Source of the DNA: Nocardioides sp.
Lineage (GTDB): Bacteria > Actinomycetota > Actinomycetes > Propionibacteriales > Nocardioidaceae
Direction of reading: 5' to 3'
Assembly: GCF_024509035.1 (NCBI RefSeq)
Contig: NZ_JANINT010000132.1
Span: 1-36,410 of the forward strand
Length of the DNA stretch: 36,410 nucleotides
Both the position numbers and the translations under genes were made by a program. The notes beneath the pieces were generated by a model. That model ran no database searches and was not told the origin of the DNA. It saw nothing but the letters and a program-made list of their open reading frames with translations. Shown here piece after piece: positions 11,808-33,184 of this stretch. Positions within the stretch are counted from its first letter, which is position 1. Every line of letters begins with the position of its first letter.

Positions 11808-11821
11808 AAGAACCTGTTCTA
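11808..11821. promoter_or_regulatory. KstR-like operator, imperfect
   Basis: AAGAACCTGTTCTA fits the mycobacterial KstR consensus TNNAACNNGTTNNA except that the first base is A. It ends 9 bases before the GTG of the DapB-fold gene, the same spacing (9-11 bases) as the three better boxes have to their genes. The -10 hexamer here (TATCTG, 11820-11825) is weaker than at the others. The spacing is the main reason to take it seriously. Confidence 0.45.
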
Positions 11822-11830
11822 TCTGCGAGC

Positions 11831-12889
11831 GTGTCGGGCGTGCGCGTCATCCAGTGGGCCACCGGCGGCGTCGGCCGGGCGGCCATCGAAGGAATCCTGC
11901 AGCACCCCGAGCTCGACCTGGTCGGCTGCTGGGTGCACAGCGCCGACAAGCACGGCCTCGACGTCGGCGAGATCCTCGGCACCGACCCGATCGGGGTGCG
12001 CGCGACCAGCAGCGTGGAGGAGATCCTGGCACTGCCGGCCGACGCGGTGCTGTACGCACCGCTGATCCCCGACCGCGACCAGGTCGCCGCGCTGCTGCGC
12101 GCGGGCAAGAACGTCGTGACGCCGGTCGGCTGGTTCTACCCCACCGAGAAGGACGGCGCGCCGCTCGCGGCGGCCTGCGCCGAGGGTGGGAGCACCCTGC
12201 ACGGCACGGGCATCAACCCGGGAGGCATCACCGAGCTCCACCCGTTGATGTTCTCAGCGCTCTCCTCCTCCGTCACCTTCGTGCGTGGCGAGGAGTTCTC
12301 TGACATCCGCACCTACAACGCACCGGACGTGGTGCGCCACATCATGATGTTCGGTGGGCCTCCGGAGGAGGCGATGGGCGGGCCGATGCTCGGCCTGCTC
12401 TCCGGCGGTTTCGTCCAATCGGTGCGGATGTGCCTGGACGCGCTGGGGTTCTCCCGGGACGCGGAGATCCGCACCTCACAGGAGGTCGCGGTGGCGACCG
12501 CCCCGATCCAGACCCCCATCGGAGTCATCGAGCCGGGACGCGTGGCGGGCCAGCGGTTCGTGTGGGAGGCGTTCGTCCGCGACGCGTGCGTCGTACGCAT
12601 CGCGGTCAACTGGCTGATGGGCGAGGAGCACCTCGAGCCGGCGTGGACCTTCGGTCCCCAGGGCGAGAGGTTCGAGGTCGAGGTGCGTGGCGACCCGAAC
12701 ACGTTCGTCACCATCAAGGGCTGGCAGCCGGAGACCGTCGAGGAAGGGCTCGTCCGCAACCCGGGCGTGGTCGCGACCGCACTGCACTGCGTCAACTCGA
12801 TCCCGTACGTCGTGGCCGCCGAGCCCGGGATCCGGACCTACCTCGACCTGCCGCTCATCGCCGGGCGGGCGCACCCCGACCTTCGCTGA
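11831..12889 (+). CDS. DapB-fold NAD(P)-dependent oxidoreductase of unknown substrate
   Basis: 352 residues. The N-terminal Rossmann fold (VRVIQWATGGVGRAAIEGIL, about residues 4-23) and the following HPELDLVGCWVHSADKHGLD resemble dihydrodipicolinate reductase N-domains and 2,4-diaminopentanoate dehydrogenase relatives. The central and C-terminal part (GTGINPGGITELHPLMFSAL and beyond) is the dimerisation/substrate domain found in these amine-dehydrogenase-like proteins, common in steroid-degrading actinobacteria. It is not a lysine-pathway DapB, which is shorter. The GTG at 11831 is chosen because the upstream KstR-like box then has the same spacing as in neighbouring promoters; GTG 11840 is possible. 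Its 3' end overlaps the convergent nitroreductase gene by 35 bases. A role in steroid metabolism is inferred from the box only. Confidence 0.75.
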   Translation: MSGVRVIQWATGGVGRAAIEGILQHPELDLVGCWVHSADKHGLDVGEILGTDPIGVRATSSVEEILALPADAVLYAPLIPDRDQVAALLRAGKNVVTPVGWFYPTEKDGAPLAAACAEGGSTLHGTGINPGGITELHPLMFSALSSSVTFVRGEEFSDIRTYNAPDVVRHIMMFGGPPEEAMGGPMLGLLSGGFVQSVRMCLDALGFSRDAEIRTSQEVAVATAPIQTPIGVIEPGRVAGQRFVWEAFVRDACVVRIAVNWLMGEEHLEPAWTFGPQGERFEVEVRGDPNTFVTIKGWQPETVEEGLVRNPGVVATALHCVNSIPYVVAAEPGIRTYLDLPLIAGRAHPDLR

Positions 12890-13808
12890 CGGCCACGGGA
12901 CGCCGCGGGGTCGGCCGGGCCGGGGCGGTGGGGCCGAGCCGGGCGACCATCTGGGGCACGTGCCCGTGGACGACTGCGCCCAACCGGGCTCGGAGCGCGG
13001 GGCTGGCCTCGCACGGCTGGTTCTCGAAGGCGGCGGAGAGTCCCTCCCGTGTCGCCGTGAGCAGCACCCGTTGGAGCGCCTGGCCGGCGCAGAGCCAGTC
13101 CTCGGGCTCGTCCTCCTGGGTCGCCAGCACGACCACGGCCGGCGCCTCGGACACCAGGCGCGCGTCGGTGGCGCCCAGCCGGCGGCCCAGGTCGAGGTGC
13201 GCCACCACGAACCGGGTCGGCACCAAGGAGGCGACCGAGACCGGCAGCCCGTCGCCACCGTGCCGGATGCGGAACCAGCGGGCGAGCTCCCGGCGCCATC
13301 CGCGGTCGCACCACAAGACGTGGTCCGCCTCGCCCACGAGACCCGCGACGGAGTTGCGCTGCAAGGCGTCCATCACGTGGAGGATTGCCCCCTCGGCCGC
13401 CGCCGCGGCCGTGAGCGTCGCGAGGGTCCGCGCGTCGACCGTCGCCCGCTCGAACGGACCGTGGTGCGTACGTCGCGTGGCGACAGCGTCGTAGAGGTCG
13501 GCCTCGTCGCCGGGTGCGTCGGTCAGGTGCACCGTGGCCAGGTGGTCGGGGTCGGTGTCGCCCTCGGGGTAGGGCTGGACGATCGTGCCCATCCCGGCGT
13601 GCGCGGCCGCCACCCGGAGCGCGAAGAGCGCGGCCCCACAGCTGATGACGAGCTCGCGGCCGCGGGGGTCGTTGACCGGCAGGGCGCGGGCCCGGTCCGC
13701 GTAGAGCTCGACGCGGGACTCGTCGGACGCGACCGCCCACCGCCACGGCTGGGTGTTGTGCGACGACGGCGCCCAGGCGGCTGCTGCGACGAGCTCGGTG
13801 ATCGACAT
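12855..13808 (-). CDS. Acg-type nitroreductase-family protein
   Basis: 317 residues of the Acg family (M. tuberculosis Rv2032 and relatives), a divergent branch of the flavin nitroreductase superfamily in which the FMN site may be self-covered. The family start ITELVAAAAWAPSSHNTQPW (about residues 3-22) and the paired half-domains with ATRRTHHGPFERATVDARTL are clear. Mycobacterial homologues are DosR-dependent dormancy genes, but no DosR-like box was recognised here. The ATG at 13808 has GGGAGG 4-5 bases upstream; an ATG at 13820 has none. It stands alone and its 3' end overlaps the DapB-fold gene convergently by 35 bases. Substrate and reaction are unknown. Confidence 0.85.
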   Translation of the reverse strand: MSITELVAAAAWAPSSHNTQPWRWAVASDESRVELYADRARALPVNDPRGRELVISCGAALFALRVAAAHAGMGTIVQPYPEGDTDPDHLATVHLTDAPGDEADLYDAVATRRTHHGPFERATVDARTLATLTAAAAAEGAILHVMDALQRNSVAGLVGEADHVLWCDRGWRRELARWFRIRHGGDGLPVSVASLVPTRFVVAHLDLGRRLGATDARLVSEAPAVVVLATQEDEPEDWLCAGQALQRVLLTATREGLSAAFENQPCEASPALRARLGAVVHGHVPQMVARLGPTAPARPTPRRPVAVSEGRGAPARR

Positions 13809-13895
13809 GGGACCTCCCATGTCCGAGCCTGACGGGCGGGGCGATCGGGAGGTCAGGGGCGAAGGTCCGCCGGTCGGGAGGCGGTGGACCCGGAC

Positions 13896-14144: not shown

Positions 14145-14270
14145 CTCAGTCCCCCCAGACCTGGTGATGCGGGTTGATCCCCTCTGCCACCCATGATGCC
14201 ACCGGCCCGGATGCTGCGCCGCGATCGCAGCGTGATCTTCGCGACGGCCCCCGGGTCACCGACCGTCGTC

Positions 14271-14325: not shown

Positions 14326-14375
14326 CGCAACAGTCCGGCGCGCGAGCCCGCTGCCGGCCGTGCGTCGGCGCGCGG

Positions 14376-15519: not shown

Positions 15520-17166
15520 TCAGACGGAGGTGGGGTCCACGACGGCCGCCTTCGCGGCGAAGCCGGCCATCGCCAGCTCCTTGGCCCGCGGGTACTGCGC
15601 CTTGCCGGTGGCGTTGCGGGGGATGCGGTCCACGATCGTCAGCGAGCGCGGCAGCTTGTAGCCGGAGAGGAACTCGCGCAGGTACTCGCGCAGCTCCTCC
15701 AGCTCGAGGCTCGAGCCCTCGCGGAGCTCGACGACGGCGGCCACGGCCTGGCCGTACTTCTCGTCGGGGATCCCGACCACCAGGACGTCGTAGACGGCGG
15801 GGTGGCCCTTGACCGCCATCTCGACCTCCTCCGGGTAGACCTTCTCGCCGCCGGTGTTGACGCAGTTGGACCCTCGCCCGAGGAGCGTCACGCGGCCGCC
15901 CTCCTCGATCCGGGCGAAGTCGCCCGGCACCGAGTAGCGGTCGCCGTCGACCTCGATGAACGTCGCCGCGGACTTGACCGGGTCCTTGTAGTAGCCGACC
16001 GGCACCGAGCCACCGCGGGCGAGCCGACCGGTGCGACCGACGTTGCTCTCCATGTCGAGGATCTTGTTGTCCTCATCGAGCACGACGCTGCCCGGACCGA
16101 GCGCGACGACGGGTCCGTCGGTGGAGATGTTGTTGGGGTCCTGCATGCCCATGCCGCCGAAGCCGGTCTCGGTCGATCCGACCGAGTCGGTGAACACCGC
16201 GTTGGGGAAGGCCGCCATCCACCGCGCCTTCACCGGCGGGCTGAAGATCGCGGCGCTGCTGGAGATCGCGAACAGGCTCGATCCGTCGAACCCGCCGGCC
16301 TCGTAGGCCTCGATGAGGGGACGGGCCATCGCGTCGCCGGTCATGAAGATCAGCTGGACCTTCTCGCGGTCGATGATCTCCCAGGTGCGCACCGGGTCGA
16401 ACTTGGGCTCGAGGATCGTCAGGTGCCCGGCGAACAGGTGCATCAGGAGGCCGGCCTGGGCGCCGCCGTGCATGAGCGGGCTGAGCGGGAACGTGACCAT
16501 CCGCGGGTCCGTGGCCTGCTTGGACTGGTCGTACTCCTCCATCAGCGCGCCGGTGTAGAAGTCGATCCCGCCGCCCAGCACCCGCCAGAAGTCCTCGTGG
16601 CGCCACATCACACCCTTGGGGAAGCCGGTCGTCCCGCCGGTGTAGATGATGTGGATGTCGTCGGGGCTGCGCTCGCCGAAGTCGCGCTCGGCGCTCTGGC
16701 CGGCCATCGCCTCGTCGTAGTGGACACCGCCGTACGACGAGAAGTCCGACCGGTCCGCGGGGTCGAGCGCGTCGTCGAGGACCACGGCGACGCCCAGCTT
16801 CTCGTGCTTGGGCCAGCACTTGGCCACCAGCGGCGCGTAGGAGCGCTCGTGGATGAGTGCGACGACGTCGGCGTTGTCGAAGATGTAGTCGAGCTCGCTC
16901 TCGACGTAGCGGTAGTTCACGTTGATCGTCGTCGCCCGGATCTTGACGATCGCCAGCGTCGCGACGACGTGCTCGATGCTGTTCTTGGCGTAGATCGCCA
17001 CGTGGTCACCCGCACCCACACCCTGGGCCTGCAGGTAGTGCGCGAGCCGGTTGGCGTCGGCCTCGAGCTCGGCGTACGTCACGGCCCGGTCACCGACCTT
17101 GAGGGCGAGGTTCTCGGGGGCGGCGTCGACTGCGTGTTCGAAGAGGTCAGCGATGTTGTGAGCCAC
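15520..17166 (-). CDS. fadD19: Steroid-CoA ligase FadD19
   Basis: 548 residues, the same length as M. tuberculosis FadD19 as I recall it. It is an ANL-superfamily acyl-CoA synthetase that activates the steroid side-chain carboxylate to its CoA thioester via an adenylate. The AMP-binding P-loop [11 protein letters not shown] (175-185) is followed by the FadD19-typical [26 protein letters not shown] and the adenylate-binding [12 protein letters not shown] are present, and the C-terminal domain contains [13 protein letters not shown] and the catalytic lysine in [13 protein letters not shown]. The GTG start at 17166 lies 10 bases from a KstR-like box, with no ribosome site, suggesting a leaderless message. 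Divergence from echA19 repeats the Rv3515c-Rv3516 arrangement. Rhodococcal FadD19 is needed for C24-branched sterol side chains. Confidence 0.93.
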
Positions 17167-17172: not shown

Positions 17173-17205
17173 AGACTAGAACACGTTCTTGTTTTTGGCT
17201 AGCAT
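17173..17205. promoter_or_regulatory. KstR-like operator with divergent -10 elements (fadD19/echA19)
   Basis: The 14-mer TAGAACACGTTCTT (17177-17190) matches TNNAACNNGTTNNA except for the last base. Towards fadD19 (minus strand) TAGTCT (17178-17173) is a good -10 that shares its TA with the box and lies 6 bases from the GTG. Towards echA19 TAGCAT (17200-17205) lies 8 bases from the ATG. Both messages are therefore predicted to be leaderless, and a bound repressor would cover the fadD19 -10 directly. Confidence 0.75.
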
Positions 17206-17213: not shown

Positions 17214-18014
17214 ATGACCACCCCGGAGACCGCCGCGCCGCACTGCCTCGTCGAGCAGGACGGACACAAGCTGATCGTCACGATGAACCGGCCCGAGGCG
17301 CGCAACGCCCTCTCCGGGGAGATGATGGCGATCATGGAGGAGGCCTGGGACCGGGTCAACAGCGATCCGGAGATCCGGGTCTGCATCCTCACCGGGGCCG
17401 GCGGGTTCTTCTGCGCCGGCATGGACCTCAAGGCCGCGACCAAGCGCTCCCCCGACGAGAGCTTCAAGTCCGGCTTCGACCCCTCGGTGATCAAGGGACT
17501 GCTCAAGGGGTTCCGTCTCACCAAGCCGCTGATCGCCGCCGTCGAGGGGCCGGCCGTGGCGGGCGGCACCGAGATCCTGCAGGGCACCGACATCCGGATC
17601 GCGGGCGAGTCCGCGAGGTTCGGCGTGGCTGAGGCGAAGTGGAGCCTGTACCCCATGGGCGGCTCCGCCGTCCGACTCCCCCGGCAGATCCCCTACACGG
17701 TCGCGCTCGACCTGCTGCTGACCGGCCGGCTGGTCACGGCACCCGAGGCGAAGGAGATCGGGCTGATCGGCCACGTCGTCCCCGACGGCGAGGCGCTCGC
17801 GAAGGCCCACGAGATCGCCGACCTGATCTGCGCGAACGGCCCGCTGGCCGTCCAGGCGATCCTCAAGACCGTCCGCGACTCCGAGGGCAAGCACGAGGAG
17901 GACTGCTGGGCCGGCGACGCGGCGGTCGGCATGGCCGTCTTCGCCTCCGAGGACGCCAAGGAGGGCCCCCGCGCCTTCGCCGAGAAGCGCGCCCCGCAGT
18001 TCCAGGGCCGCTGA
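17214..18014 (+). CDS. echA19: Steroid enoyl-CoA hydratase EchA19
   Basis: 266 residues of the crotonase superfamily, adding water to the alpha,beta-double bond of steroid side-chain acyl-CoAs during beta-oxidation. The oxyanion-hole segment [14 protein letters not shown] (64-77) and [20 protein letters not shown] (108-127) are clear; Glu120 and Glu140 occupy the positions of the usual catalytic acids. The C-terminus [15 protein letters not shown] is shared with M. tuberculosis EchA19 as I recall it, at nearly the same length. It is divergent from fadD19 across a 47-bp region with a KstR-like box. The ATG at 17214 has no ribosome site and is probably leaderless. PAP2 follows 48 bases later on the same strand but is probably unrelated. 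Confidence 0.93.
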
Positions 18015-18928: not shown

Positions 18929-19897
18929 TCAGAGCGTGGCGCGCAGGTGCCGCAGGCGGCGCTCGTGGTGGGCACCGGGGACCGAGTGGCTCCCGAAGCG
19001 GTGCACCGCGATCTCCTTGGGCGCGTCGATCTCGTGGTAGGCCGCGTAGACCGTCGAGGGCGGGCAGATCTCGTCCATCAGCCCCACGCTCATCAACGTG
19101 GTGGCGCGGATCCGTCGGGCCAGCAGCGCACAGTCGACGTAGCGCAGCGTGTCGAGCGCGCGCTCGGCCAGGTCGACCTGCTGGGAGAGGAAGTTGGCGA
19201 CCTCGCGGTAGGGGAACTCCCCCGTCAGGCCGACGGCCCGCTGGAGGTCGCAGAGGAACGGCACGTCGGCGTGGCAGACCTTGACGAGGTCGGGCTGCAG
19301 AGCGGCTGCGGCCAGGGCGAGCCCCCCACCCTGGCTCGTTCCCTGGACGCCGAGGCGGTTCGCGTCGATTCCGTCGAGCTCCGAGGCGACCCGGACGGCT
19401 CGGGCGGCGTCGGTCATCAGCCGCGTGTAGTAGTAGGTCTCCGGGCTGGTGATGCCACGGGTCATGACCCCGGGGTGCTCCGGGCCGTCGGCCGGGCGTC
19501 CCGGGTCGCCGGTGGCGCCGGTGGTCCACCCACCGCCCTGGCCGCGGGTGTCCATGACCAACGACGCGATGCCGATCGCCGGCAGCGCCAGGTGCTCCAC
19601 GGGAAGGCCCCGGCCGCCGCCGTACCCGATGAAGGTGACGACGACCGGGACGTCCCGGGCTCCGGGGGGCTGGAGGAACCATCCCCGGATCCGATCCCCG
19701 CGCGCGCCGGAGAACTCGACGTCGTAGACGGCGACGGCGCCGTAGGCGTCCTCGGCGTGGCGGGTGAGCGTGGTCGGTGTGGCTGCGGCGTCGGCCTCGG
19801 CGAGACGCGCCGCCCAGAACGCGTCGAGGTCCTCGGGCTCGGGCGTGGCGATGCGGTAGTCCTGCAGCTCCGGTTCGGAGAGGTCGAACCAGGGCAT
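18929..19897 (-). CDS. Acetylxylan esterase (CE7 family)
   Basis: 322-residue alpha/beta-hydrolase of carbohydrate esterase family 7 (acetyl xylan esterase/cephalosporin C deacetylase). The N-terminus has the family's LDAFWAARLAEADA; YDVEFSGARGDRIRGWFLQP and MDTRGQGG follow. The nucleophile is Ser188 in GVQGTSQGGGLAL, the acid Asp275 in SVGLMDEICPP, and the histidine probably His304 in RFGSHSV. No signal peptide is present, so it would remove acetyl groups from imported xylo-oligosaccharides in the cytosol, where GH10 and GH3 then act. It is the last gene of the operon; its ATG overlaps the GH3 stop codon by one base. Family members are hexamers; that is not visible here. Confidence 0.92.
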   Translation of the reverse strand: MPWFDLSEPELQDYRIATPEPEDLDAFWAARLAEADAAATPTTLTRHAEDAYGAVAVYDVEFSGARGDRIRGWFLQPPGARDVPVVVTFIGYGGGRGLPVEHLALPAIGIASLVMDTRGQGGGWTTGATGDPGRPADGPEHPGVMTRGITSPETYYYTRLMTDAARAVRVASELDGIDANRLGVQGTSQGGGLALAAAALQPDLVKVCHADVPFLCDLQRAVGLTGEFPYREVANFLSQQVDLAERALDTLRYVDCALLARRIRATTLMSVGLMDEICPPSTVYAAYHEIDAPKEIAVHRFGSHSVPGAHHERRLRHLRATL

Positions 19898-22185
19898 CAG
19901 CGGGCCTCGACCACGACCGTCGGCTGGAGCACCCGCTCGGCGCCGACCTGGCGGGTGGTCCCGACCAGCTCCAGACGGAGCACCTCGCGGATGTCCGTGC
20001 TCGAGGCGCCGACGCGCAGCTCGACCGCCCCCGGCTCGACGATGCGGACCAGGTCACGACCCGTGAACGACGTCAGGTCGGCCGACAGCTCGAAGCGCAC
20101 CCGCGTGCGCTCGCCGGGCTCGAGGTCGACCCGCGCGGCAGCGACGAGCTGCTGCACCGGGCGCACGACCGAGGAGACCGGGTCGTGGAGGTAGACCTGG
20201 ACGACCTCGGAGACCGATCGGTCGGCGTCGTTGGCGAGCTCGACCGCGATCTCGCAGCTGCCTTCGGTGTCCCACTGCTCGCCGCTGACGGCCGAGACGT
20301 CACCCCACGTCGCGTCCGCGTACGACAGGCCGTGGCCGAACGGGTAGAGCGCGGTCGGGTCGACCACGCTGACCTCGCTGCGCTGACCCAGCGGGGCGGC
20401 GAGGTACGTCGACGGCTGGGTCGACCCCGCACCGGGGAAGCTGACCGGGAGTCGGCCGGAGGGGTTGACCCGGCCGCTGAGCACGTCGGCGATCGCGCGG
20501 GCGCCCTCCTCGCCGGGGAAGAAGCCGCAGACCAGGCCGGCCAGCCGGTCGGCCTGACGGCTGAGGTCGTAGGGCCGGCCGACGAGCAGCACGGCGACGA
20601 CGGGCTTGCCGGTCGCGAGCAGTGCCTCGAGCAGCTCCTCCTGGCGGCCGGGGAGGTCGAGCGTGGCGACGTCGCAGCCCTCGCCGGACGTGCCCTTGCC
20701 GAACAGGCCCGCCTGGTCGCCGAGCACCGCCACGCACACGTCCGCCGCCTGGGCGGCCGCGACGGCCTCCGCGATCTGCTCGTCGGAGCCGCCGAGCACC
20801 GGGCAGCCCTCGGCGTACGTGACGTCGTAGTCGGCGGCCAGCGACTCGCGCACCGTCGGCACGTCCAGCCCGATCTCGATGTCGTCGTAGTGCACCAGCA
20901 CGTGCATCGGGAAGGAGTAGCAGCCCATCATGGCCTGCGCCGTGTCGGCTCGGGGGCCGACGACAGCGAGCCGGGCGCCGTCGCGCAGCGGGAGCGTCCC
21001 GTCGTTGGCCAGCAGCACCGTCGAGCGCCGAGCCAGGTCGAGCGCGATCGCGCGCGACGTCGGGTCGTCGAGGTCCACGTCGCCCACCTCGGCGGGAGCC
21101 CAGCCGGGATCGAGCAGGCCGAGCTCGCACTTCTGGGTCAGCACCCGGGTCAGGGCACGGTCGACGAGCTTCTCGTCCACCAGCCCGGCCTCGACGGCCT
21201 CGAGGAGCGGGTCGCCGTAGGCGTTCACCGACGGGAGCTCGACGTCGATGCCGGCCTCCAGGGCGAGCCGGGCGGCCTCGCCGGGCGATCCTGCGACGTG
21301 GTGGAGCGTCTCGAGGAACGCGATCGCGAAGTAGTCGGCCACGACGACCCCGTCGAAGCCCAGCGTGTCGCGCAGCAGCGTCGTGAGCAGCGCCCTGTCG
21401 GCGGCGGCGGGGACGCCGTCGGTGTCGGTGTAGGAGTTCATCACCGAGCGGGCTCCGGCGCGCAGCGCCATCTCGAAGGGCGGCAGGATCACGTCGGCGA
21501 ACTCACGCGGCCCCATGGACACGGGCGCGAGGTTGCGCGCCGCGCGCGACGCGGAGTAGCCGGCGAAGTGCTTGAGCGTCGCCACGACGCCACCGGACTC
21601 GAGTCCGCGGACGTAGGCGCTGCCGACGAGGCCGACGAGGAACGGGTCCTCGCCGAGGCTCTCCTCGACCCGGCCCCACCGGGCGTCGCGGACGACGTCG
21701 AGCACCGGGGCGAGGCCCTGGTGGATGCCCAGGCGGCGCATGTCGGCGGCGATCTTGGCGCCCATGCGCTCCACCAGCGCCGGGTCGAAGGACGCCGCCC
21801 AGCACAGCGGAGCGGGGTAGACGGTGGCCTGCCACGCGTTGAGGCCGGTGAGGCACTCCTCGTGGACCTGGGCCGGGATGCCGAACCGGTTGGCGGCGAC
21901 GACCTGGCGCTGCCGCTCGGCCAGGGCTTCGAGCCCCGCCGCCGGCGTGACCGGCTCGGTGCCGAAGGGCCGGGTGAGCTGGCCGAGGCCGTCGGCGATG
22001 AGGTTGTTCCAGAGCTGGGCGGGCCCCATCCCGTCGCGCAGCATCGGCGCCATCTCACCGACGTCGGGGTCGACCTTCCAGATGCCCGAGAGCTGGCTGA
22101 TCTTCTCGCTGAGCGTCATCCGCCCCATCAGGTCCGACACACGCGCCTCGACGGAGGCTTCGGGGTCGTGCCACAGCTCGGTCAT
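19897..22185 (-). CDS. GH3 glycosidase, likely beta-xylosidase
   Basis: 762 residues without a signal peptide: an N-terminal TIM-barrel domain (about 1-320), an alpha/beta-sandwich domain (about 370-590) and a C-terminal fibronectin-III-like domain (about 655-735). KHF is at 205-207. The nucleophile is Asp284 in VVVADYFAIAF; the more usual SDW/SDY context is ADY here. GH3 enzymes release terminal beta-linked sugars; the operon partners (CE7 esterase, LacI regulator, importer, GH10 xylanase) favour xylose over glucose. The ATG at 22185 overlaps the stop codon of the lacI gene (ATGA), so translation is coupled. The specificity for xylose is inferred from the neighbourhood. Confidence 0.92.
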   Translation of the reverse strand: MTELWHDPEASVEARVSDLMGRMTLSEKISQLSGIWKVDPDVGEMAPMLRDGMGPAQLWNNLIADGLGQLTRPFGTEPVTPAAGLEALAERQRQVVAANRFGIPAQVHEECLTGLNAWQATVYPAPLCWAASFDPALVERMGAKIAADMRRLGIHQGLAPVLDVVRDARWGRVEESLGEDPFLVGLVGSAYVRGLESGGVVATLKHFAGYSASRAARNLAPVSMGPREFADVILPPFEMALRAGARSVMNSYTDTDGVPAAADRALLTTLLRDTLGFDGVVVADYFAIAFLETLHHVAGSPGEAARLALEAGIDVELPSVNAYGDPLLEAVEAGLVDEKLVDRALTRVLTQKCELGLLDPGWAPAEVGDVDLDDPTSRAIALDLARRSTVLLANDGTLPLRDGARLAVVGPRADTAQAMMGCYSFPMHVLVHYDDIEIGLDVPTVRESLAADYDVTYAEGCPVLGGSDEQIAEAVAAAQAADVCVAVLGDQAGLFGKGTSGEGCDVATLDLPGRQEELLEALLATGKPVVAVLLVGRPYDLSRQADRLAGLVCGFFPGEEGARAIADVLSGRVNPSGRLPVSFPGAGSTQPSTYLAAPLGQRSEVSVVDPTALYPFGHGLSYADATWGDVSAVSGEQWDTEGSCEIAVELANDADRSVSEVVQVYLHDPVSSVVRPVQQLVAAARVDLEPGERTRVRFELSADLTSFTGRDLVRIVEPGAVELRVGASSTDIREVLRLELVGTTRQVGAERVLQPTVVVEAR

Positions 22186-23264: not shown

Positions 23265-23276
23265 GTGCCTTCGGGC

Positions 23277-24116: not shown

Positions 24117-24126
24117 GTCCTTCACC

Positions 24127-25101
24127 TCACCCTTCGGTCTGGGTGTCGCGCCGGAGCACGAACGTCTGGTAGGCCAGCGCCATCACGAATCCGATGACGA
24201 ACAGCACCACCGACGCCGCCCCAGCGATGCCGTAGTTGTAGCGCCCGGTGCCTTGGTTGATCAGGTAGGTGGCCATCGTCGTCGTGGCGTTCGCGGGACC
24301 GCCGCCCGTCAGGATCCACACCATGTCGAAGAGCTGGATCGACCCGATCATCGACAAGAACGCCCAGGTCCGGATCGTCGGGCCGAGCAGCGGGATCGCG
24401 ATGCGTCGCTGGGTCTGCCACCAGGTGGCACCGTCGAGCTGGGCGGCCTCGTAGAGCTCGTCCGGCACGCCCTGCAGGCCCGCCATGAACAGCAGGATCG
24501 CGAGGCCGAGGTACTTCCAGGTGAGGACCACGAACACGGTCCACAACGCGAGGTCCGGCGTGCCGAGGAAGCCCTGCTCGGGTGGTGTCAGACCGATCCC
24601 CGAGATGATCCCGTCCACCACACCGGACTCGGGCTGGAGCAGCTGGAACCAGACCACACCCGCGATCACCTCGGCCAGGACGTACGGCACGAAGACGACC
24701 GTGCGGAGCACGCCGCGGAACCGGATCTTGCGGTTGAGCAACAGCGCCACCGCCAGCCCGAGCGGCAGCTGCACGAGGATGGACAGGATCACGATCGTGA
24801 AGTTGTGCATGATCGCGTCGGTGAAGACCTGGTCGTGCAGGACGCGGTCGTAGTTGCGCCACCCCACGAAGTCGTCCATCGGGCCGAAGCCCTTCCAACG
24901 GTAGAACGACATCCGCACCGCGGAGGCGATCGGCCAGACGACGAAGACCGCCATCAGGGTCAACGCCGGCGTCACGAAGAGCGCGATCTCCAGGCGTTGC
25001 CGCCAGGGCCCTTCCTGCCGGGGGGTCACCCGGCGCGCTGTCGCGCGCCGGGTGACCTCCGCGTGCGCGGGTGCCGCAGACACGGCGCCCTCGTTTGCCA
25101 C
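24127..25101 (-). CDS. Sugar ABC transporter permease (MalF-like)
   Basis: 324-residue CUT1-type permease. A cytosolic basic N-terminus (about 1-38) precedes six predicted membrane helices beginning at LEIALFVTPALTLMAVFVVW. The ATPase-contacting EAA loop is DELYEAAQLDGATWWQTQRR with IAIPLLGP (about 216-244). It follows the lipoprotein gene by 7 bases and is followed by its partner permease, so the three form a BxlEFG-like importer. The GTG start at 25101 is the first in frame after the lipoprotein gene. The presumed substrate is a beta-1,4-xylo-oligosaccharide from the enzymes encoded around it. Confidence 0.92.
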   Translation of the reverse strand: MANEGAVSAAPAHAEVTRRATARRVTPRQEGPWRQRLEIALFVTPALTLMAVFVVWPIASAVRMSFYRWKGFGPMDDFVGWRNYDRVLHDQVFTDAIMHNFTIVILSILVQLPLGLAVALLLNRKIRFRGVLRTVVFVPYVLAEVIAGVVWFQLLQPESGVVDGIISGIGLTPPEQGFLGTPDLALWTVFVVLTWKYLGLAILLFMAGLQGVPDELYEAAQLDGATWWQTQRRIAIPLLGPTIRTWAFLSMIGSIQLFDMVWILTGGGPANATTTMATYLINQGTGRYNYGIAGAASVVLFVIGFVMALAYQTFVLRRDTQTEG

Positions 25102-25108
25102 AGTCAGC

Positions 25109-26410
25109 TCACTTCGCCTCGTCGGCTGCCGTCTGGGTGGCGTCCACGACGTCCTGCGGCGAAGCCTTGCCGGCGAACAGCAGCGCGATCTCGTCGTTCA
25201 TCGCCCCACCCACGGACTGGCCGAAGGCGGTGTCGAAGTACAGCTGGATGAACGGCGCCGCGTCGCGGACCTCGAGCAGGCCGGCCAGGGCCGGGTCCTT
25301 GACGGAGCCGGACGCCGCCGGGTTGGTCGGCAGACCCATGTCGTTCTCGGCGAAGCCGATCTGGACCTCGTCGGAGAGCAGGTACTTCACGAGGTCGACG
25401 GCCTGGTCGGGCGCGCCCTCGGACACGGCCCACGCGTCGCCACCACCGAGCTGTGCTGCGGGGTCACCCGCGCCACCCTCGACGGCCGGGAACGGGAACC
25501 AGGCGGTCTTGTCGCCCAGGCCCTTGCCGTCATCGGTCAGGCCCTGCATGACACCGGGCTCCCAGTGGCCCTGCATCTCCATGGCCACCTTGCCCGTGGC
25601 GAGCAGGCCGGACGCGGAGGTCGCGCCCTCCTGCGCCGGGGTGCTCAGGAAGCCGGGGTTGAACGGCTCGGTCTTGAGCAGGTCCTCGACGACCTCGCCG
25701 GCCTTGACGAAGCACGGGTCGCTGAAGTCGAGGCTCGTGACGGCGCCCTTCAGGACGTCCTCGGAGCACGAGCGCAGCGCGGTGTAGTACCAGTAGTGCG
25801 CGGCCGGCCACTTGTCGCCCGCACCCACCGAGATCGGGGTGATGTCGGCAGCCTTGAGCTTGGCGATGACGTCGTAGAGCTCGGTCATCGTGGTCGGGGG
25901 CGCGGTGATGCCGGCCTTCTCGAACAGGTCGGTGTTGTACCAGAAGCCCACGACGCCCATCGAGAACGGGAGAGCGTAGGTCTTGCCGTCGTTCTGCCAG
26001 CCGGCGACGGAGCCGCCGATCTTCGCGATCTCGTCAGCAGCGTCGTCGGAGATGTCGCGGACCAGCCCGGCCTCGACGTGGTCGGCGAGCTCGCCGCCGC
26101 CACGCTCCATGTAGATGTCGGGCATGTCACCGCTCTGGAAGGCGGCGGCGAGCTTGTCGACCATGTCCTCGTGGGCCATGGCGGTGATCTCGACCTTCAC
26201 GCCCGGGTTGTCGGCCTCGAAGTCCTTGGCCACCTGCTCGTAGTAGCCCTTACCGGGCTCGTTGTTCGAGTTGTGCCACCACGTGATCGTGGTGTCACCA
26301 CCCTTGCTCGACGAGTCACCCCCGTCGCTGTCGCTGCCACACGCCGACGCGAACATCAACGCGCCGGCACAGAGCGCAGCAACCGCTGCGCTACGAGTCT
26401 TCCGCCTCAT
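25109..26410 (-). CDS. Sugar-binding lipoprotein of ABC importer
   Basis: 433-residue extracellular solute-binding protein (SBP family 1). A lipoprotein signal peptide ends in FASAC, with lipidated Cys24 and a following Gly/Ser/Asp linker (to about 38). The domain then starts TTITWWHNSNNEPGKGYYEQ, typical of CUT1 oligosaccharide binders, and contains the conserved ATGKVAMEMQGHWEPG segment. It captures the imported oligosaccharide at the outer face of the membrane. It is the first gene of the operon; GGAAGG lies 7 bases before the ATG at 26410, with a 50-base leader from the predicted promoter. Divergent GH10, GH3 and CE7 genes suggest a xylo-oligosaccharide ligand, similar in design to BxlE of Streptomyces. 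Confidence 0.93.
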   Translation of the reverse strand: MRRKTRSAAVAALCAGALMFASACGSDSDGGDSSSKGGDTTITWWHNSNNEPGKGYYEQVAKDFEADNPGVKVEITAMAHEDMVDKLAAAFQSGDMPDIYMERGGGELADHVEAGLVRDISDDAADEIAKIGGSVAGWQNDGKTYALPFSMGVVGFWYNTDLFEKAGITAPPTTMTELYDVIAKLKAADITPISVGAGDKWPAAHYWYYTALRSCSEDVLKGAVTSLDFSDPCFVKAGEVVEDLLKTEPFNPGFLSTPAQEGATSASGLLATGKVAMEMQGHWEPGVMQGLTDDGKGLGDKTAWFPFPAVEGGAGDPAAQLGGGDAWAVSEGAPDQAVDLVKYLLSDEVQIGFAENDMGLPTNPAASGSVKDPALAGLLEVRDAAPFIQLYFDTAFGQSVGGAMNDEIALLFAGKASPQDVVDATQTAADEAK

Positions 26411-26465
26411 TGGGAACCCTTCCGTTTGCCCACGGCCTCTGTGGGACGTCCGTCACACACAACGC

Positions 26466-26494
26466 AACCTCCCACTACCCCTTGCGCATGTCAA
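26466..26494 (-). promoter_or_regulatory. Predicted promoter of the xylan operon
   Basis: On the minus strand a perfect -35 TTGACA (26494-26489) is followed after 17 bases by GAGGTT (26471-26466), a modest -10. The -35 abuts and overlaps by two bases the 20-bp palindrome at 26493-26512, so a repressor there would block RNA polymerase. The message would start near 26458, about 48 bases before the lipoprotein start codon. Confidence 0.55.
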
Positions 26495-27789
26495 TCGTTA
26501 TCGATAACGATTTCGACGTGATCACGCTCTCGTCCTCCCACCGCTCCCACTCCACGGTCGTCACGCTGCGCGGCCCCGACGGCGCCCCGCTCGCGGACGC
26601 CGACGTCATGGTCCGGCAGGTCCGCCACGCGTTCGCCTTCGGCAACATCGGCTTCGACTTCGTCGACCTCGCGGCCGCACAGGTGGGCATCGCAGCCGAC
26701 GGGCCGCACGTCTTCGGCGGTGCCGACCGCGAGTCCGCCGAGCGGCTGGTCGAGCTGTGGCTCGACGTGTTCAACACCGCCACCCTCCCGTTCTACTGGG
26801 CCGGCTTCGAGCCCGCGGAGGGCCGGCCCGACACCGAGCGGTTGCTCGCGGCGGCCCGGTGGTTCCGCGAGCGCGGCGTCTCCCTCAAGGGCCACCCGCT
26901 CGTGTGGCACACGCTGGCCCCCGGCTGGCTGCGCGACCGCCCGGACGACGAGGTCGAGTCAGTCGTCCGAGCGCGGGTCCGACGCGAGGTGGGGGCGTTC
27001 GCGGGCCTCATCGACACCTGGGACGCGATCAACGAGGTCGTGATCATGCCGGTGTTCGACAACGAGGAGCGCCAGAACGCCGTGACCCGGCTGTGCCGGC
27101 GGATCGGCCGGATCCCCACGGTCCGACTGGCCTTCGAGGAAGCACGAGGCGTCGGCGCCGGAGTGCGGCTCGTGCTCAATGACTTCGACATGTCCACCGC
27201 CTACGAGTGTCTCATCGAGGGCGTGCTCGAGGCGGGCATCCAGGTGGACGCGATCGGCCTCCAGAGCCACATGCACCAGGGCTACTGGGGCGAGGAGCGG
27301 ACCTGGGCCACCCTCGAGCGGTTCGCGCGCTACGGGCTGCCGCTGCAGATGACCGAGACCACGCTGCTCTCCGGTGACCTCATGCCGCCGGAGATCGAGG
27401 ACCTCAACGACTTCCAGCCCTCGTCGTGGCCCTCCACCCCCGAGGGCGAGGAGCGACAGGCCGACGAGGTGGTCCGCCACTACCGCACCCTGCTGGCCCA
27501 CCCGGCCGTCGAGGCGGTCAACTACTGGGGGATCACCGACCGGGGTGCCTGGCTCGGCGCGCCGGCCGGGCTGGTGCGCGCCGACGGCACGCCGAAGCCG
27601 GCGTACGACGCCTTGCGTGCGCTGGTCAAGGACGAGTGGTGGCTCTCCCCCACCCCGATGCGCACCGACGGGGCGGGGCGGATCACGGTCGAGGGCTGGT
27701 GGGGCGACTACGCCGTGGACAGCGGCGCCTCGACCGCGACCTTCGCCCTCGAGCGCGACACGCCGTTGGTGCAGGCCACGCTGGCATAG
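26488..27789 (+). CDS. GH10 endo-beta-1,4-xylanase (cytosolic)
   Basis: 433 residues. An N-terminal beta-rich segment (about 20-55) precedes the GH10 TIM barrel (about 75-390). Catalytic residues are Glu183 (acid/base, in TWDAINEVV) and Glu290 (nucleophile, in LQMTETTLL); the GHPLVWH motif (135-141) is also present. About 35 residues after the barrel (LSPTPMRTDGAGRITVEGWW) form a small beta-rich tail. No signal peptide is seen, so it probably acts on imported xylo-oligosaccharides. The start is uncertain: ATG 26488 has no ribosome site and the probable operator falls inside codons 2-9, whereas GTG 26518 would start just after it. The gene diverges from the importer operon. Confidence 0.88.
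   Translation: MSIVIDNDFDVITLSSSHRSHSTVVTLRGPDGAPLADADVMVRQVRHAFAFGNIGFDFVDLAAAQVGIAADGPHVFGGADRESAERLVELWLDVFNTATLPFYWAGFEPAEGRPDTERLLAAARWFRERGVSLKGHPLVWHTLAPGWLRDRPDDEVESVVRARVRREVGAFAGLIDTWDAINEVVIMPVFDNEERQNAVTRLCRRIGRIPTVRLAFEEARGVGAGVRLVLNDFDMSTAYECLIEGVLEAGIQVDAIGLQSHMHQGYWGEERTWATLERFARYGLPLQMTETTLLSGDLMPPEIEDLNDFQPSSWPSTPEGEERQADEVVRHYRTLLAHPAVEAVNYWGITDRGAWLGAPAGLVRADGTPKPAYDALRALVKDEWWLSPTPMRTDGAGRITVEGWWGDYAVDSGASTATFALERDTPLVQATLA
26493..26512. promoter_or_regulatory. Probable LacI-family operator (20-bp perfect palindrome)
   Basis: AATCGTTATCGATAACGATT is a perfect palindrome with a central CG-containing core, the form of LacI-family sites. It lies between the divergent lipoprotein and GH10 genes, overlapping the -35 box of the former and codons 2-9 of the latter. 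I found no second copy in the window. The cognate regulator is probably the lacI gene in the same operon; that assignment is inferred. Confidence 0.8.
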
Positions 27790-27792: not shown

Positions 27793-29421
27793 TCAGCCGA
27801 CGGCGCGGTCCCCGGTCCAGTACTGCGCGCGGAGGGCCTTCTTGTCGGGCTTGCCCAGCGCCGTGAGCGGCAGCGCGTCGGCGACGATGACCTGCTTGGG
27901 TGCCTGCACGGAGCCCTTGCGCTCCTTGACCATGTCCTGGATCTCGGTCGTCATCCGCGCGATCGACTCCTCGTCGCGCGCGGCGTCGGAGCGGAGCACG
28001 ACGATCGCGGTCACGGCCTCCCCGAACTTCTCGTGAGGGGTGCCGATCACCCCGACCTGGGCGACGGCCGGGTGCGCAGCGACGACGTCCTCGACCTCGC
28101 GCGGGAAGACGTTGAAGCCACCGGTGACGATCATGTCCTTGGTGCGGTCGACGATGTACCAGAACCCGTCCTCGTCCTCGCGCGCAACGTCACCGGTGTG
28201 CATCCAGCCGTCGCGGAAGGTCTCGGCGGTCTCGTCGGGACGGTTCCAGTAGCCGCCGGCCAGCAGCGGCCCGGCGACGCAGATCTCCCCCGGCTCACCG
28301 ACCGGCACCGGCGTACCGTCCTCGCCGAGCAGCGCCGTGCGGATGAACGCCGAGGGCCGCCCGCAGGAGGCGAGCCGGCGCTCGTCGCCCCCCTCCCTCA
28401 ACGCCGCAGCGTGGTCGTCCTTGGCCAGGTAGGTGATCGCCATCGGCGCCTCGGACTGCCCGTAGTACTGCGCGAAGATCGGCCCGAACCGGTCGATGGC
28501 CTCCTTCAGCCGCACCGGGTTGATCGCGGAGGCGCCGTAGTAGACCGTCTCGAGGGAGGAGAGGTCCCGGGTCTGCGAGTCCGGGTGATCCATGAGCGCG
28601 TAGAGCATCGAGGGCACCAGCATCGTGGCGGTGATGCGCTGCTCCTCGATCGTGCGCAGCACCTCGGCCGGGTCGAACTTCGCGAGCACGTAGAGGCACC
28701 CGCCCTTGAGGACGGTCGGCACGAAGAACGCCGCGCCGGCGTGCGAGAGCGGTGTGCACATGAGGAACCGCGGGGACTCGGGCCACTCCCACTCGGCCAT
28801 CTGGATCTGCGTCATCGTGTGCATCTGGCGGGAGGTGCCGATCACGCCCTTGGGCTTGCCGGTCGTGCCCCCGGTGTAGGTGATCGACACGATGTGGTCG
28901 GGCTCCAGCGTCACCGCCTCGAGCGGCACCGGGTCGAAGGACGCCGCGGCCGCGTTGAGGTCGGACCCGACGTGGCTGAGCTCCTCGGGCACGGGACCGA
29001 TCGTGAGGACCTTCTCGAGCTTGGGGCAGCGCTCGAGCAGCCCCAGCGCGCGCTCGACGAACATCGGCACCGGGTCGATGGTGATCGCGGTGATCTCGGC
29101 GTCGTTGATGACGTAGGCGTGGTCCTCGAGCGAGCCGAGCGGGTGGAGTGACGTACGCCGGTATCCCTGGGTCTGCCCGGCACCGAGGATGAAGAGCACC
29201 TCGGGCCGGTTGAGCGCGAGCAGCGCACCGGCGGTGCCGCGGCCGGCGCCGAGCGACTCGTACGCCTGCACGTACTGGCTGATCCGCTCGGCGGTCTCCC
29301 CGCCGGTGAGCGTGGTGTCCCCCAGGTGCATGACCGGCTGCCGCCGGTGCCGCTTGAGGGCGGCCACCATCAGGTGGCCGTTGTGGGTCCCGACTCGCAT
29401 GGCGTGGGTGTCGTCGCGCAT
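27793..29421 (-). CDS. fadD8: Acyl-CoA synthetase, FadD8-like
   Basis: 542-residue ANL-superfamily ligase that forms an acyl-adenylate and then an acyl-CoA. The P-loop is YTGGTTGKPKG, followed by VIGTSRQMHT. YYGASAINPVRLKEAIDRF, YYGQSEAPMAITYLAKDD and GWMHTGDVAREDEDGFWYIV (the adenylate-binding core) follow; the catalytic lysine is in LTALGKPDKKALRA near the C-terminus. Length and the NGHLMVAALKRH start resemble M. tuberculosis FadD8; the acyl substrate is unknown. A perfect KstR-like box lies 11 bases upstream, which places it in the steroid regulon. ATG 29421 fits the leaderless spacing; a later ATG at 29400 is possible. The gene ends three bases from the convergent GH10 gene. Confidence 0.87.
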   Translation of the reverse strand: MRDDTHAMRVGTHNGHLMVAALKRHRRQPVMHLGDTTLTGGETAERISQYVQAYESLGAGRGTAGALLALNRPEVLFILGAGQTQGYRRTSLHPLGSLEDHAYVINDAEITAITIDPVPMFVERALGLLERCPKLEKVLTIGPVPEELSHVGSDLNAAAASFDPVPLEAVTLEPDHIVSITYTGGTTGKPKGVIGTSRQMHTMTQIQMAEWEWPESPRFLMCTPLSHAGAAFFVPTVLKGGCLYVLAKFDPAEVLRTIEEQRITATMLVPSMLYALMDHPDSQTRDLSSLETVYYGASAINPVRLKEAIDRFGPIFAQYYGQSEAPMAITYLAKDDHAAALREGGDERRLASCGRPSAFIRTALLGEDGTPVPVGEPGEICVAGPLLAGGYWNRPDETAETFRDGWMHTGDVAREDEDGFWYIVDRTKDMIVTGGFNVFPREVEDVVAAHPAVAQVGVIGTPHEKFGEAVTAIVVLRSDAARDEESIARMTTEIQDMVKERKGSVQAPKQVIVADALPLTALGKPDKKALRAQYWTGDRAVG

Positions 29422-29428: not shown

Positions 29429-29447
29429 AGACTAGAACGTGTTCTAG
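29429..29447 (-). promoter_or_regulatory. KstR-like operator with overlapping -10 (fadD8-like gene)
   Basis: TAGAACGTGTTCTA (29433-29446) matches TNNAACNNGTTNNA exactly; the flanking C and G extend the dyad to 16 bp (29432-29447). On the minus strand the last TA of the box begins the -10 hexamer TAGTCT (29434-29429), which lies 7 bases before the ATG at 29421. The sequence GAGACTAGAAC is shared with the fadD19 promoter, suggesting one design. Confidence 0.8.
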
Positions 29448-29521
29448 CTTCGGGCAATCCTCGGTCCGACCCGGGCCGTTCGCCACTGGCGCTCCTGGCC
29501 GGTCAGCGGTTTGCTGGCGCC

Positions 29522-30426
29522 ATGGGCGTGGTCGTGGTCGATCACCTGCACAAGTCCTACCGCCGGACCGTGGCCGTCGACGACGTCTCGTTCGAGGTCG
29601 AGGCGGGTGAGATCTTCGGGATCCTCGGGCCGAACGGCGCGGGCAAGACGACGACGGTCGAGTGTGCCCAGGGCCTGCGCCGCCCCGACTCCGGGACGAT
29701 CCGGGTCCTCGGGCTCGACCCGGCGACCCAGGGCGGGCAGCTGCGCCAGCGCGTGGGCTCGCAGCTGCAGGCCTCCTCGCTGCCGGGCCGGCTGAGGGTC
29801 GCGGAGGCCATCCGGCTCTTCGCCGCCTTCGCGGACCACCCGGTCGGCCGCGACGAGCTCCTGCGGCGCTGGCGCCTGGAGGTCAGCGTGGCCAGAGCTT
29901 CGACAGCCTCCCGGGTGGCCAGCGCCAGCGCCTGTTCATCGCGCTCGCCTTCGTGAACTCGCCCGAGCTGGTGTTCCTCGACGAGCTGACCCAGGGGCTC
30001 AACCCGCAGGCGCGGCGTGCGACGTGGGACCTGATCCGCGAGATCCGCGAGGGCGGTACGACGGTCGTGCTGGTGACGCACTTCATGGACGAGGCCGAGC
30101 ACCTGTGCGACCGGGTGGCGGTGGTGGACGGCGGACGGGTGGTGGCGGTCGACACCCCCCAGGGGCTCATCGACGGCCTGGGACTGCCCTCGATCGTCCG
30201 GTTCACCGCGAGCGGGCAGGAGCTGGACTGGCTGGCGAACGTCCCCGGGGTCGGCTCGATGTCGTGGCGTGGCGACACCGTCGAGGTCCGGGGCACCGGT
30301 CCGCTGCTGGCCCTGGTCGCCGCCGAGCTCGTGGCGCGCGGCATCAGGCCGCTCGACCTCCGGGTGGACCGCCCCACGGTCGAGGACGCGTTCCTCGCCC
30401 TCACCGGCCGAGAGCTGCGGGAGTGA
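29522..30426 (+). pseudogene. ABC transporter ATPase, frameshifted
   Basis: Reading from ATG 29522, the first part contains a normal Walker A (GILGPNGAGKTT, about residues 35-46) and runs to about 29881. The rest of the protein, from QRGQSFDSLPGGQRQRLFIA through Walker B LVFLDEL and the HFMDEAEH switch to the stop at 30426, continues in the -1 frame. A single base is missing near 29881-29883 compared with a continuous gene. The signature is LPGGQ rather than LSGGQ. The intact protein would be about 301 residues, a drug- or ABC-2-type exporter ATPase, and the permease gene follows. It is either a recent frameshift or a sequence error; I see no slippery site for programmed shifting. Confidence 0.85.
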
Positions 30427-31196: not shown

Positions 31197-31232
31197 CGCG
31201 GCCCGGCGAGCGGGCGGCGCAGGGTCCGAGGG

Positions 31233-31973: not shown

Positions 31974-32079
31974 GGGGACCTTCGGGTGGTGGAGGTGCGG
32001 CGCGTCGTCGCGCCCGAGACACCCCCACCATCGGCAGGGCCCACGTGTTCCTGAGGCAGGCCCCCGCGACCGCCGCGCG

Positions 32080-33123
32080 TCAGGCGAGCAGCTCCGCCAC
32101 CGAGCGCACCTCGTCGGCCGAGCGGCAGCTGAGGAGCAGCGTGGTCACGCCGGTCTCCTCCCACTGCGCGACCTTCTCCTTGACCTCGCCGGCGGTGCCG
32201 ATGATGTGCATGTCGTCGACCAGCTCGTCGGGGATGAGCGAGGTCGCGCGGTCCTTCTCCCCCGCCAGGTAGAGCTTCTGGACCTCCGCCGCGAGGTCCT
32301 CGTAGCCCATCCGGACGAAGACCTGGTTGTGGAAGTTCGCCTCCTTGGCGCCCATCCCGCCCATGTACAGCGAGACGAACGGACGCATCGCGTCGAGGAC
32401 CGCCGCCTTCTCCTCGGCGTTCGCGACGACCTGGAGGTGGCACGTCGCGGCGATCTCGAAGTCGGCGCGGGTACGGCGGGCGCCGGGTCGTGCGAAGCCC
32501 TCGTCGAGCCACGGCTGGTACATGCCGGCCGACTTGGGCGTGTAGAAGATCGGGATCCAGCCGTCGGCGATCTCGGCGGTCTGGGCGACGTTCTTGGGTC
32601 CCTCGGCGCCCAGCCAGATCGGGACGTCGGCGCGCAGCGGGTGCACGATCGGCTTGAGCGGCTTGCCGAGGCCGACCGAGCCCTCACCCTGGAACGGCAG
32701 TGGGTAGTGCGGGCCGTCGTTGGTCACCGGCGCCTCACGGGCGAGCACCTTGCGGATGATGTCGACGACCTCACGGGTCCTGGCCAGCGGCTTGGCGAAC
32801 GGCTGGCCGTACCAGCCCTCGACGACCTGCGGCCCGCTGACGCCCATGCCGAGGATCACACGCCCACCCGAGAGGTGGTCGAGCGTCAGCACGTGCATCG
32901 CGATCGAGGTCGGCGCCCGCCCGGACATCTGCACGATCGACGTACCGAGCTTGATGCGGGAGGTCTCCCGCCCCCACCAGGCCAGCGGCGTGAACGCATC
33001 GCTCCCCCAGGCCTCGGCCGAGAAGATGGCGTCGAAGCCCGCGTCCTCCGCGGCGGCGACGAGCTCACCGACTCCCTGCGGGGGCTGGGCCCCCCAGTAG
33101 CCGAGCTGCAGTCCGAGCTTCAT
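32080..33123 (-). CDS. F420-dependent LLM-class oxidoreductase (Rv3520c type)
   Basis: 347 residues, the same length as M. tuberculosis Rv3520c as I recall it. It is a luciferase-like TIM barrel of the F420-dependent class. Nearly identical segments to that protein include MKLGLQLGYWGAQPPQ, ELVAAAEDAGFDAIF, GVSGPQVVEGWYGQPFAKPL and LGAEGPKNVA. The substrate is not established; co-regulation with sterol genes suggests a side-chain intermediate or ring reduction. The ATG at 33123 has AAGGAG 7 bases upstream; an earlier ATG at 33150 adds non-family residues. Expression starts from TAGGAT (33168-33163), whose TA belongs to the KstR-like box; this transcript has a leader, unlike the divergent gene. 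Confidence 0.92.
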   Translation of the reverse strand: MKLGLQLGYWGAQPPQGVGELVAAAEDAGFDAIFSAEAWGSDAFTPLAWWGRETSRIKLGTSIVQMSGRAPTSIAMHVLTLDHLSGGRVILGMGVSGPQVVEGWYGQPFAKPLARTREVVDIIRKVLAREAPVTNDGPHYPLPFQGEGSVGLGKPLKPIVHPLRADVPIWLGAEGPKNVAQTAEIADGWIPIFYTPKSAGMYQPWLDEGFARPGARRTRADFEIAATCHLQVVANAEEKAAVLDAMRPFVSLYMGGMGAKEANFHNQVFVRMGYEDLAAEVQKLYLAGEKDRATSLIPDELVDDMHIIGTAGEVKEKVAQWEETGVTTLLLSCRSADEVRSVAELLA

Positions 33124-33162
33124 GGGTCTCTCCTTCGTGGCGATGGACACGATGCTTGCCCG

Positions 33163-33184
33163 ATCCTAGAACGTGTTCTACTTT
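33163..33184. promoter_or_regulatory. KstR-like operator with divergent -10 elements (LLM/DUF35)
   Basis: TAGAACGTGTTCTA (33167-33180) is an exact TNNAACNNGTTNNA match. Rightward, TACTTT (33179-33184) uses the TA at the right end of the box as its -10 and lies 6 bases from the ATG at 33191, predicting a leaderless message. Leftward, TAGGAT (33168-33163) uses the TA at the other end. One bound repressor dimer would cover both -10 elements. Confidence 0.8.

Follow-up and report, generated by a model that had tools for sequence, protein, structure and literature searches.

Where does a repressor act when the message of its target gene appears to begin at the start codon itself? This question is raised by a contig of 36,410 nucleotides (nt) from Nocardioides sp. 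(RefSeq assembly GCF_024509035.1, contig NZ_JANINT010000132.1, positions 1 to 36,410 of the forward strand), analysed here over its full length and called the window; it is contig C132 of a genome of 4.75 Mb in 453 contigs. The window holds four boxes that resemble operators of the TetR-family repressor KstR, and steroid-catabolism genes lie behind them (FadD8, EchA19, FadD19-like, ChsH2-type and Rv3520c-type). We consider it very probable that such boxes are KstR operators built into core promoters of the leaderless type. The principle is known from mycobacteria, and KstR operators in core promoters of this type are ordinary in kind; what is new here is the quantified register between box and start codon, the enrichment of leaderless-type starts, and its conservation.

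Boxes and promoters in the window

A sequence-only reading of this DNA had placed boxes at 11808, 17177, 29433 and 33167, and a pattern scan of the window returned all four; the observation of the boxes and of their promoter layout is confirmed. Regarding the loose pattern TNNAACNNGTTNNA that had been ascribed to them, the fit is exact at 29433 and 33167, whereas the box at 17177 is one base off: its sequence, TAGAACACGTTCTT, and that of the box at 11808, AAGAACCTGTTCTA, each lie one terminal base short of TNNAACNNGTTNNA. The stricter palindrome TAGAACNNGTTCTA occurs in the window twice exactly and four times with at most one mismatch, compared with a mean of 0 in both counts over 60 first-order Markov resamplings, and the looser pattern with one mismatch gives 5 matches against 1.07 expected. 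Across the whole genome, TAGAACNNGTTCTA is found exactly at 6 sites (reversed control 0) and at up to one mismatch at 27 (tallied from the site list); 12 Markov resamplings, made from 374,533 bases of the same genome, contain 0 such sites. The reversed control and the resamplings rule out a chance origin of the boxes. The 374,533-base background sample itself also holds 0 boxes at up to one mismatch, a number that was not used as a control because the sample contigs lie outside the list of box-bearing contigs. Boxes with two mismatches were discarded genome-wide as noise (83 sites, control 141).

In three of the promoters the terminal TA of the box is, as had been claimed, also the TA of a TANNNT -10 hexamer. 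The operator at 33167..33180, an exact TAGAACGTGTTCTA, ends in the TA of TACTTT (33179..33184, plus strand), which stops 6 nt before the ATG at 33191 of a DUF35/ChsH2-type gene with a putative leaderless start (33191..34165, plus; PF01796 twice, PF12172). The other exact TAGAACGTGTTCTA, at 29433..29446, shares its TA with TAGTCT (29429..29434, minus), 7 nt before the putative leaderless ATG at 29421 of fadD8 (27793..29421, minus; NF004838, 1035 bits, cut-off 875). In the case of the operator at 17177..17190, which has one mismatch and reads AAGAACGTGTTCTA on the minus strand, the hexamer sharing its TA is again TAGTCT (17173..17178, minus), 6 nt from the putative leaderless GTG at 17166 of a fadD19-like acyl-CoA ligase gene (15520..17166, minus; NF005863, 714 bits, cut-off 543), which we take, with the sequence-only reading, to be fadD19. 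By reading, -35-like TTGCCC sequences precede the -10 elements of the DUF35 gene (33156..33161, plus) and of fadD8 (29452..29457, minus), each with a spacer of 17 bp. The claimed box-to-start gaps of 9 to 11 nt are borne out, being 10 for the fadD19-like gene, 11 for fadD8, 10 for the DUF35 gene and 9 for the gene behind the box at 11808, and no GGAG, GAGG or AGGA is read directly upstream of any of the four starts, in line with the claimed lack of a ribosome site. We call a start leaderless-type when TANNNT stands 6-7 nt before ATG or GTG; three of the four window genes are of this type and also lack a Shine-Dalgarno sequence.

Register, enrichment and the repressor

A genome-wide scan for the box, which the sequence-only reading had proposed, shows boxes coinciding with the -10 of leaderless-type starts far more often than the background would give. 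The background comprised 306 genes called on sampled contigs, of which 194 come first in their transcript. Of these first genes, 24 of 194 have TANNNT 6-7 nt before a start, and every other distance between 2 and 24 nt accounts for no more than 3, so that the genome evidently uses leaderless-type promoters anyway. On the box-facing gene sides of the same genome the hexamer is found at this distance in 24 of 41 (Fisher 1.7e-9), and 21 of 36 are leaderless-type when only starts within 60 nt are taken. KstR targets appear to be enriched about fivefold in leaderless-type starts, a factor that is approximate because the background is a convenience sample and not a random one, drawn from contigs without a box at up to one mismatch, and because the gene rules for box sides and background are similar, not identical. 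A Shine-Dalgarno sequence is seen on 1 of 24 leaderless-type sides in this genome, 0 of 77 in the genus and 0 of 20 in the class; on the other sides it is seen in 11 of 17, 39 of 73 and 46 of 73, under a scoring generous to these sides, in that any of the first four starts could count.

These figures bear on a first alternative, namely that the messages are leadered, with transcription starting upstream and KstR acting as a roadblock within the 5' untranslated region. Kendall et al. 2007 report motifs overlapping or inside coding regions and suggest a blocked progression of RNA polymerase (PMC1995591). Several boxes of the present genome that lack a leaderless-type side stand 34-75 nt before the first computed start, and the transcription starts are predictions from sequence. 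However, Shine-Dalgarno sequences are nearly missing on leaderless-type sides, the TANNNT spacing is sharp at 6-7 nt, and T is enriched at the expected -35 place (70% of 60 sides, compared with 34% of 173). Leadered messages with a roadblock are thus very unlikely.

The register between box and start was read on 52 sides of this genome (all 27 boxes), 181 sides of the same genus (91 boxes) and 134 sides of the class (68 boxes); sides with fewer than 400 bases remaining were dropped, which removed 2 of 54 own sides. The genus set holds 91 of 217 boxes, the latter being the sum of per-genome counts, to which six genomes contributed every box, a seventh 4 of its 8, and 16 others one automatic locus each. 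The class set draws on 30 automatic loci together with 40 regions that were chosen, mostly of one family. Located without using the -10, the starts of coding frames peak at a gap of 10-11 nt, with 13 of 52 own sides (9 + 4) and 50 of 181 genus sides (32 + 18); every other gap up to 49 nt has 0-4 starts in this genome and 0-14 in the genus. A leaderless-type side lies within 60 nt of 19 of the 27 own boxes, 65 of 91 in the genus and 19 of 68 in the class, and at a gap of 10-11 nt it is found for 13, 46 and 14 of them, respectively. Taken together, the 114 leaderless-type sides with gaps up to 60 nt form 47 protein clusters, of which 27 have a median gap of 10-11 nt and 8 of 19-23 nt.

In the own, genus and class sets the box also favours a second position, at a gap of 19-23 nt, which places it roughly one turn of the helix further upstream than the main one. 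Both positions occur within some protein clusters, where relatives alternate between gaps of 10-11 and 20-23 nt. The helical phasing of the secondary positions gives a hint only (Rayleigh p about 0.03, 17 clusters).

The register suggests a rule for Nocardioides-type actinomycetes, by which a box plus 10-11 nt gives the start codon of many KstR-controlled genes. Such a rule would serve to mend gene starts, to sort real from chance boxes and to filter regulon predictions in steroid degraders. It also raises the question of the reason for which a catabolic regulon should be so rich in leaderless-type starts.

Regarding the regulator, the sequence-only reading had proposed a search for a kstR homologue, whose absence would have counted against it, and one was found at G000:C349, its gene broken by the contig end. 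The best solved-structure match of the C349 protein is KstR (E 4e-46), and in the alignment its helix-turn-helix part closely resembles that of solved KstR. With 213 bits to NF033703 over model positions 1-133 of 185 (curated cut-off 280 bits), it has the top KstR-model score among the TetR-type genes of the genome, the next reaching 90 bits. Over 58 genomes, a KstR match at E 1e-30 or better was present in 24 of 24 with exact boxes and in 3 of 34 without, all candidates having been scored in box-free genomes of the genus and 47 in large genomes outside it, where misses are possible; none of 14 control genomes matched. Within the genus the co-occurrence counts are 24/0/3/10 (p 8e-7, relatedness ignored). 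Three genomes of the same genus (G021, G026 and G028) have a KstR match and no exact box.

The same comparison speaks to the idea that the boxes are in truth bound by a different TetR-type regulator, such as the KstR-like paralogue C112, whose protein reaches E about 1e-17 to KstR chains in a genome with 52 TetR_N matches. The C112 type was found in 11 of the 24 box-bearing genomes (at most 54 candidates scored per genome, so that misses are possible), whereas a KstR match accompanies the boxes in every one, and the helix-turn-helix of C349 stands close to that of solved KstR. Moreover, the M. tuberculosis KstR sites identified by electrophoretic mobility shift assay (EMSA) carry the same palindrome (PMC1995591). 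The KstR2 motif AAGCAAGNNCTTGCTT (PMC8228715) is unlike the boxes read here, no search for it having been run. Altogether we regard a different ligand as quite improbable.

One further TetR_N-matching regulator, C91 (G000, L052:6595-7126, minus), is itself preceded by a KstR-type box with a gap of 10 nt and TAGGTT; it adjoins a cytochrome-P450-like frame (by eye) and is possibly a second regulator under KstR. As a candidate for KstR it was rejected: from the start used it has no Pfam match, no solved structure matches it at E 0.001, and it scores only 27.5 bits against the KstR model.

The last T of TANNNT, at position +4 after the box, follows the gene. In this genome it is present on 13 of 14 sides with a gap of 9-11 nt and on 10 of 38 others (p 1.9e-5), and in the genus on 47 of 50 and 50 of 131, respectively (p 9e-13). 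Because in the genus this T is far commoner on sides with a gap of 9-11 nt, it tracks the gene side rather than the palindrome. Highly improbable is therefore the proposal that this T, together with the GT that follows the box, is part of an extended KstR operator whose longer palindrome only happens to resemble a -10. Sides with and without a gene start do often have G at +1 and T at +2, which indicates that the operator reaches slightly past 14 bp, but a palindrome predicts T at +4 on both sides, the gene-side asymmetry disfavours an operator in place of a promoter, and TANNNT at 6-7 nt also precedes starts in the box-free sampled contigs.

How KstR operators in leaderless-type core promoters may work can be outlined as follows. 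In the dominant layout the transcription start would coincide with the start codon; on this assumption and with a gap of 10 nt, the 14-bp palindrome spans about -24 to -11, and its final two bases would be T-12 and A-11 of the -10 element. Bound KstR would deny RNA polymerase access to the spacer and to the upstream edge of the -10. Release of the operator by a steroid-derived inducer, as stated for KstR in PMC5348764, would then allow messages that have ATG or GTG at their 5' end and need no ribosome site for translation. The sequence, the spacing, the statistics, the KstR homologue, its co-occurrence with the boxes and their conservation are the basis of this scheme, from which we infer the transcription starts, the occlusion, the inducer and leaderless translation. 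The earlier reading of a repressor sitting on the -10 of leaderless messages is supported.

Since the operator is palindromic, a second -10, facing the opposite way, can draw its TA from the other end. This is the case at 33167, where the left end of the palindrome gives TAGGAT (33163..33168, minus), a promoter absent from the sequence-only reading. The gene behind it, an F420-dependent LLM oxidoreductase of the Rv3520c family (32080..33123, minus; TIGR03559, 479 bits, cut-off 335), is leadered, with AAGGAGAG before its ATG at 33123. In this genome 5 of 25 boxes have TANNNT on both sides, and in the genus 25 of 90.

As a tentative extension, for which we would claim less than even confidence, the operator half-site may itself be the upstream core promoter, so that one palindrome would set KstR binding, T-12/A-11 and, via leaderless initiation, the start codon. 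Nocardioides would have preserved this register, as would several other actinomycete genera in the case of the DUF35 gene, even as proteins and spacer sequences diverged. Operators off this register tend to lie about one helical turn upstream (gap 19-23 nt), which might hint at a face-of-helix constraint.

Conservation, counter-evidence and known systems

Conservation was followed in the relatives of the DUF35 product, taking the best 80 of 560, which are named and include a few pairs from one genome, and allowing up to 3 box mismatches. Among these 80 the nearest are Nocardioides, at 85% and less. A box with an in-frame ATG or GTG at a gap of 8-11 nt is present in 72 of 80, namely in 41 of 44 Nocardioidaceae and in 31 of 36 others, which include Nocardia, Rhodococcus, Prescottella, Saccharopolyspora and Amycolatopsis; A at the box end is found in all 72. 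Compared with Nocardioides, relatives outside the genus have gaps mostly of 8-11 nt, and TANNNT is often without its final T there. In several Nocardioides relatives (L260, L261, L267, L279 and L285) the DUF35 gene is preceded by tandem KstR-type boxes with a TTTCA right arm, the second copy adjoining the ATG (by eye). In the class, exact boxes occur in 73 of 296 genomes and 20 of 105 genera; many of the 73 genomes hold 1-2 boxes, near the yield of the reversed pattern in some genomes, and family f7, which is probably the Mycobacterium family, is rich in them.

A number of points weigh against boxes as KstR operators of leaderless-type promoters, and the limits of the background sample and of its gene rules given above belong among them. 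In the window, the gene behind the box at 11808 has the gap of 9 nt, but its hexamer is TATCTG, which is not TANNNT, and the gene is therefore not of leaderless type. Across the genome, 8 of 27 boxes have no leaderless-type side within 60 nt, and among the 24 own leaderless-type sides one has its start in common with another box and three have gaps above 60 nt. The class set is less clear: by the strict rule 20 of 93 box-facing gene sides are leaderless, a count that stands without a class background, and the T at +4 is weaker (15 of 27 versus 33 of 107, p 0.024). The kstR gene itself does not have the design, its upstream box having 3 mismatches (by eye) and lying about 116 nt before the GTG. 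Only 1 of 27 KstR matches scores above the NF033703 cut-off of 280 bits, the rest ranging from 213 to 277. Gene starts were computed by our own rules on frame and GC3 (GC content at third codon positions) and not taken from annotation, and the p-values count related sites and genomes as independent. In the DUF35 relatives with a box, the final T of TANNNT is present in 30 of 41 Nocardioidaceae and 2 of 31 others, 22 of these 31 reading TACTCG, and the box ends in CA instead of TA in 23 of the 41 Nocardioidaceae. As the box position is widely kept and the final T mostly in Nocardioidaceae, the position is old, with full sharing of TANNNT strongest in Nocardioides.

In M. smegmatis, the promoter of MSMEG_5228 reportedly has the same design: Uhia et al. 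2011 are said to have mapped experimentally a leaderless message from the ATG, with a KstR footprint from about -5 to -35, over the -10 and the -35. That case is said to concern one promoter only, and in a different genus. The promoter design had been presented as read from the Nocardioides sequence, a claim that needs amending, since a 2007 paper had already described the overlap of motif and -10 (PMC1995591), and for R. ruber kstD3 a leaderless promoter carrying a KstR box had been put forward in 2017 (PMC5348764).

Kendall et al. 2007 describe the KstR palindrome TAGAAC(N2)GTTCTA as partly overlapping the -10, and with M. tuberculosis KstR the sites of Rv0551c/Rv0552, Rv3515c/Rv3516 and Rv3520c/Rv3521 were EMSA-positive (PMC1995591, Table 3). 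By their flanking genes, the window boxes at 29433, 17177 and 33167 are the respective counterparts of these three sites. We take these Rv numbers to include fadD8, fadD19 and echA19. The Mycobacterium regulon thus agrees with the present one in palindrome, type of regulator and targets (fadD8, fadD19/echA19, Rv3520c/Rv3521), but the word leaderless is absent from that paper (PMC1995591).

In the case of R. ruber Chol-4 kstD3, a KstR box, TatAACgtGTTctA, lies near the ATG, no Shine-Dalgarno sequence is present, and promoter activity needs only 23 bp upstream of the ATG (PMC5348764), a length that we take to be the 14-bp box plus 9. Its authors differ in placing the -10 on the left arm (TATAAC), and their start-site method yielded nothing there (PMC5348764). 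About a quarter of M. tuberculosis transcripts are leaderless (Cortes et al. 2013, PMC3898074; Shell et al. 2015, PMC4633059). These share with the present promoters a -10 (TANNNT in Cortes et al.) a few bases before RTG and the lack of a Shine-Dalgarno sequence, but they are not tied to KstR, which has 0 mentions in either main text. In N. simplex, KstR sites have been predicted in 71 operons (PMC7807495); on the promoter design itself this paper contributes little, as do PMC3068626, PMC4301838, PMC5270728 and PMC12529400. A regulon-wide statement of the leaderless register was not found in a literature search whose coverage left out most subscription papers.

Other features of the window

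The weaker KstR-type box, AAGAACCTGTTCTA at 11808..11821, overlaps TATCTG, in which the final T is missing. The gene behind it encodes a dehydrogenase with a DAP_DH_C domain (11831..12889, plus), its GTG start lying 9 nt past the box. Two other DAP_DH_C genes of the genome (C254 and C442) have exact boxes, gaps of 11 and 10 nt, and a full TANNNT.

On the plus strand to the right of the operator at 17177, echA19 (17214..18014, plus; NF051848, 434 bits, cut-off 400) has the box upstream and a possible separate -10, TAGCAT (17200..17205, plus), 8 nt before its ATG at 17214. This hexamer falls outside the strict class of 6-7 nt and was excluded from the leaderless counts.

Between echA19 and fadD8, a xylan and sugar-use island (18929-27789) lies within the steroid gene neighbourhood, and contains an acetyl xylan esterase, GH3, a LacI-type regulator, two permeases, a binding protein and GH10. 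To the right of the fadD8 box, an ABC-type ATPase frame (29522-30426, plus) shows an apparent frameshift, its first part being in one frame and the LPGGQRQRL part in another, which points to either an assembly error or a broken gene; the ATPase family was assigned by eye, the first part having no Pfam match at E 1e-15.

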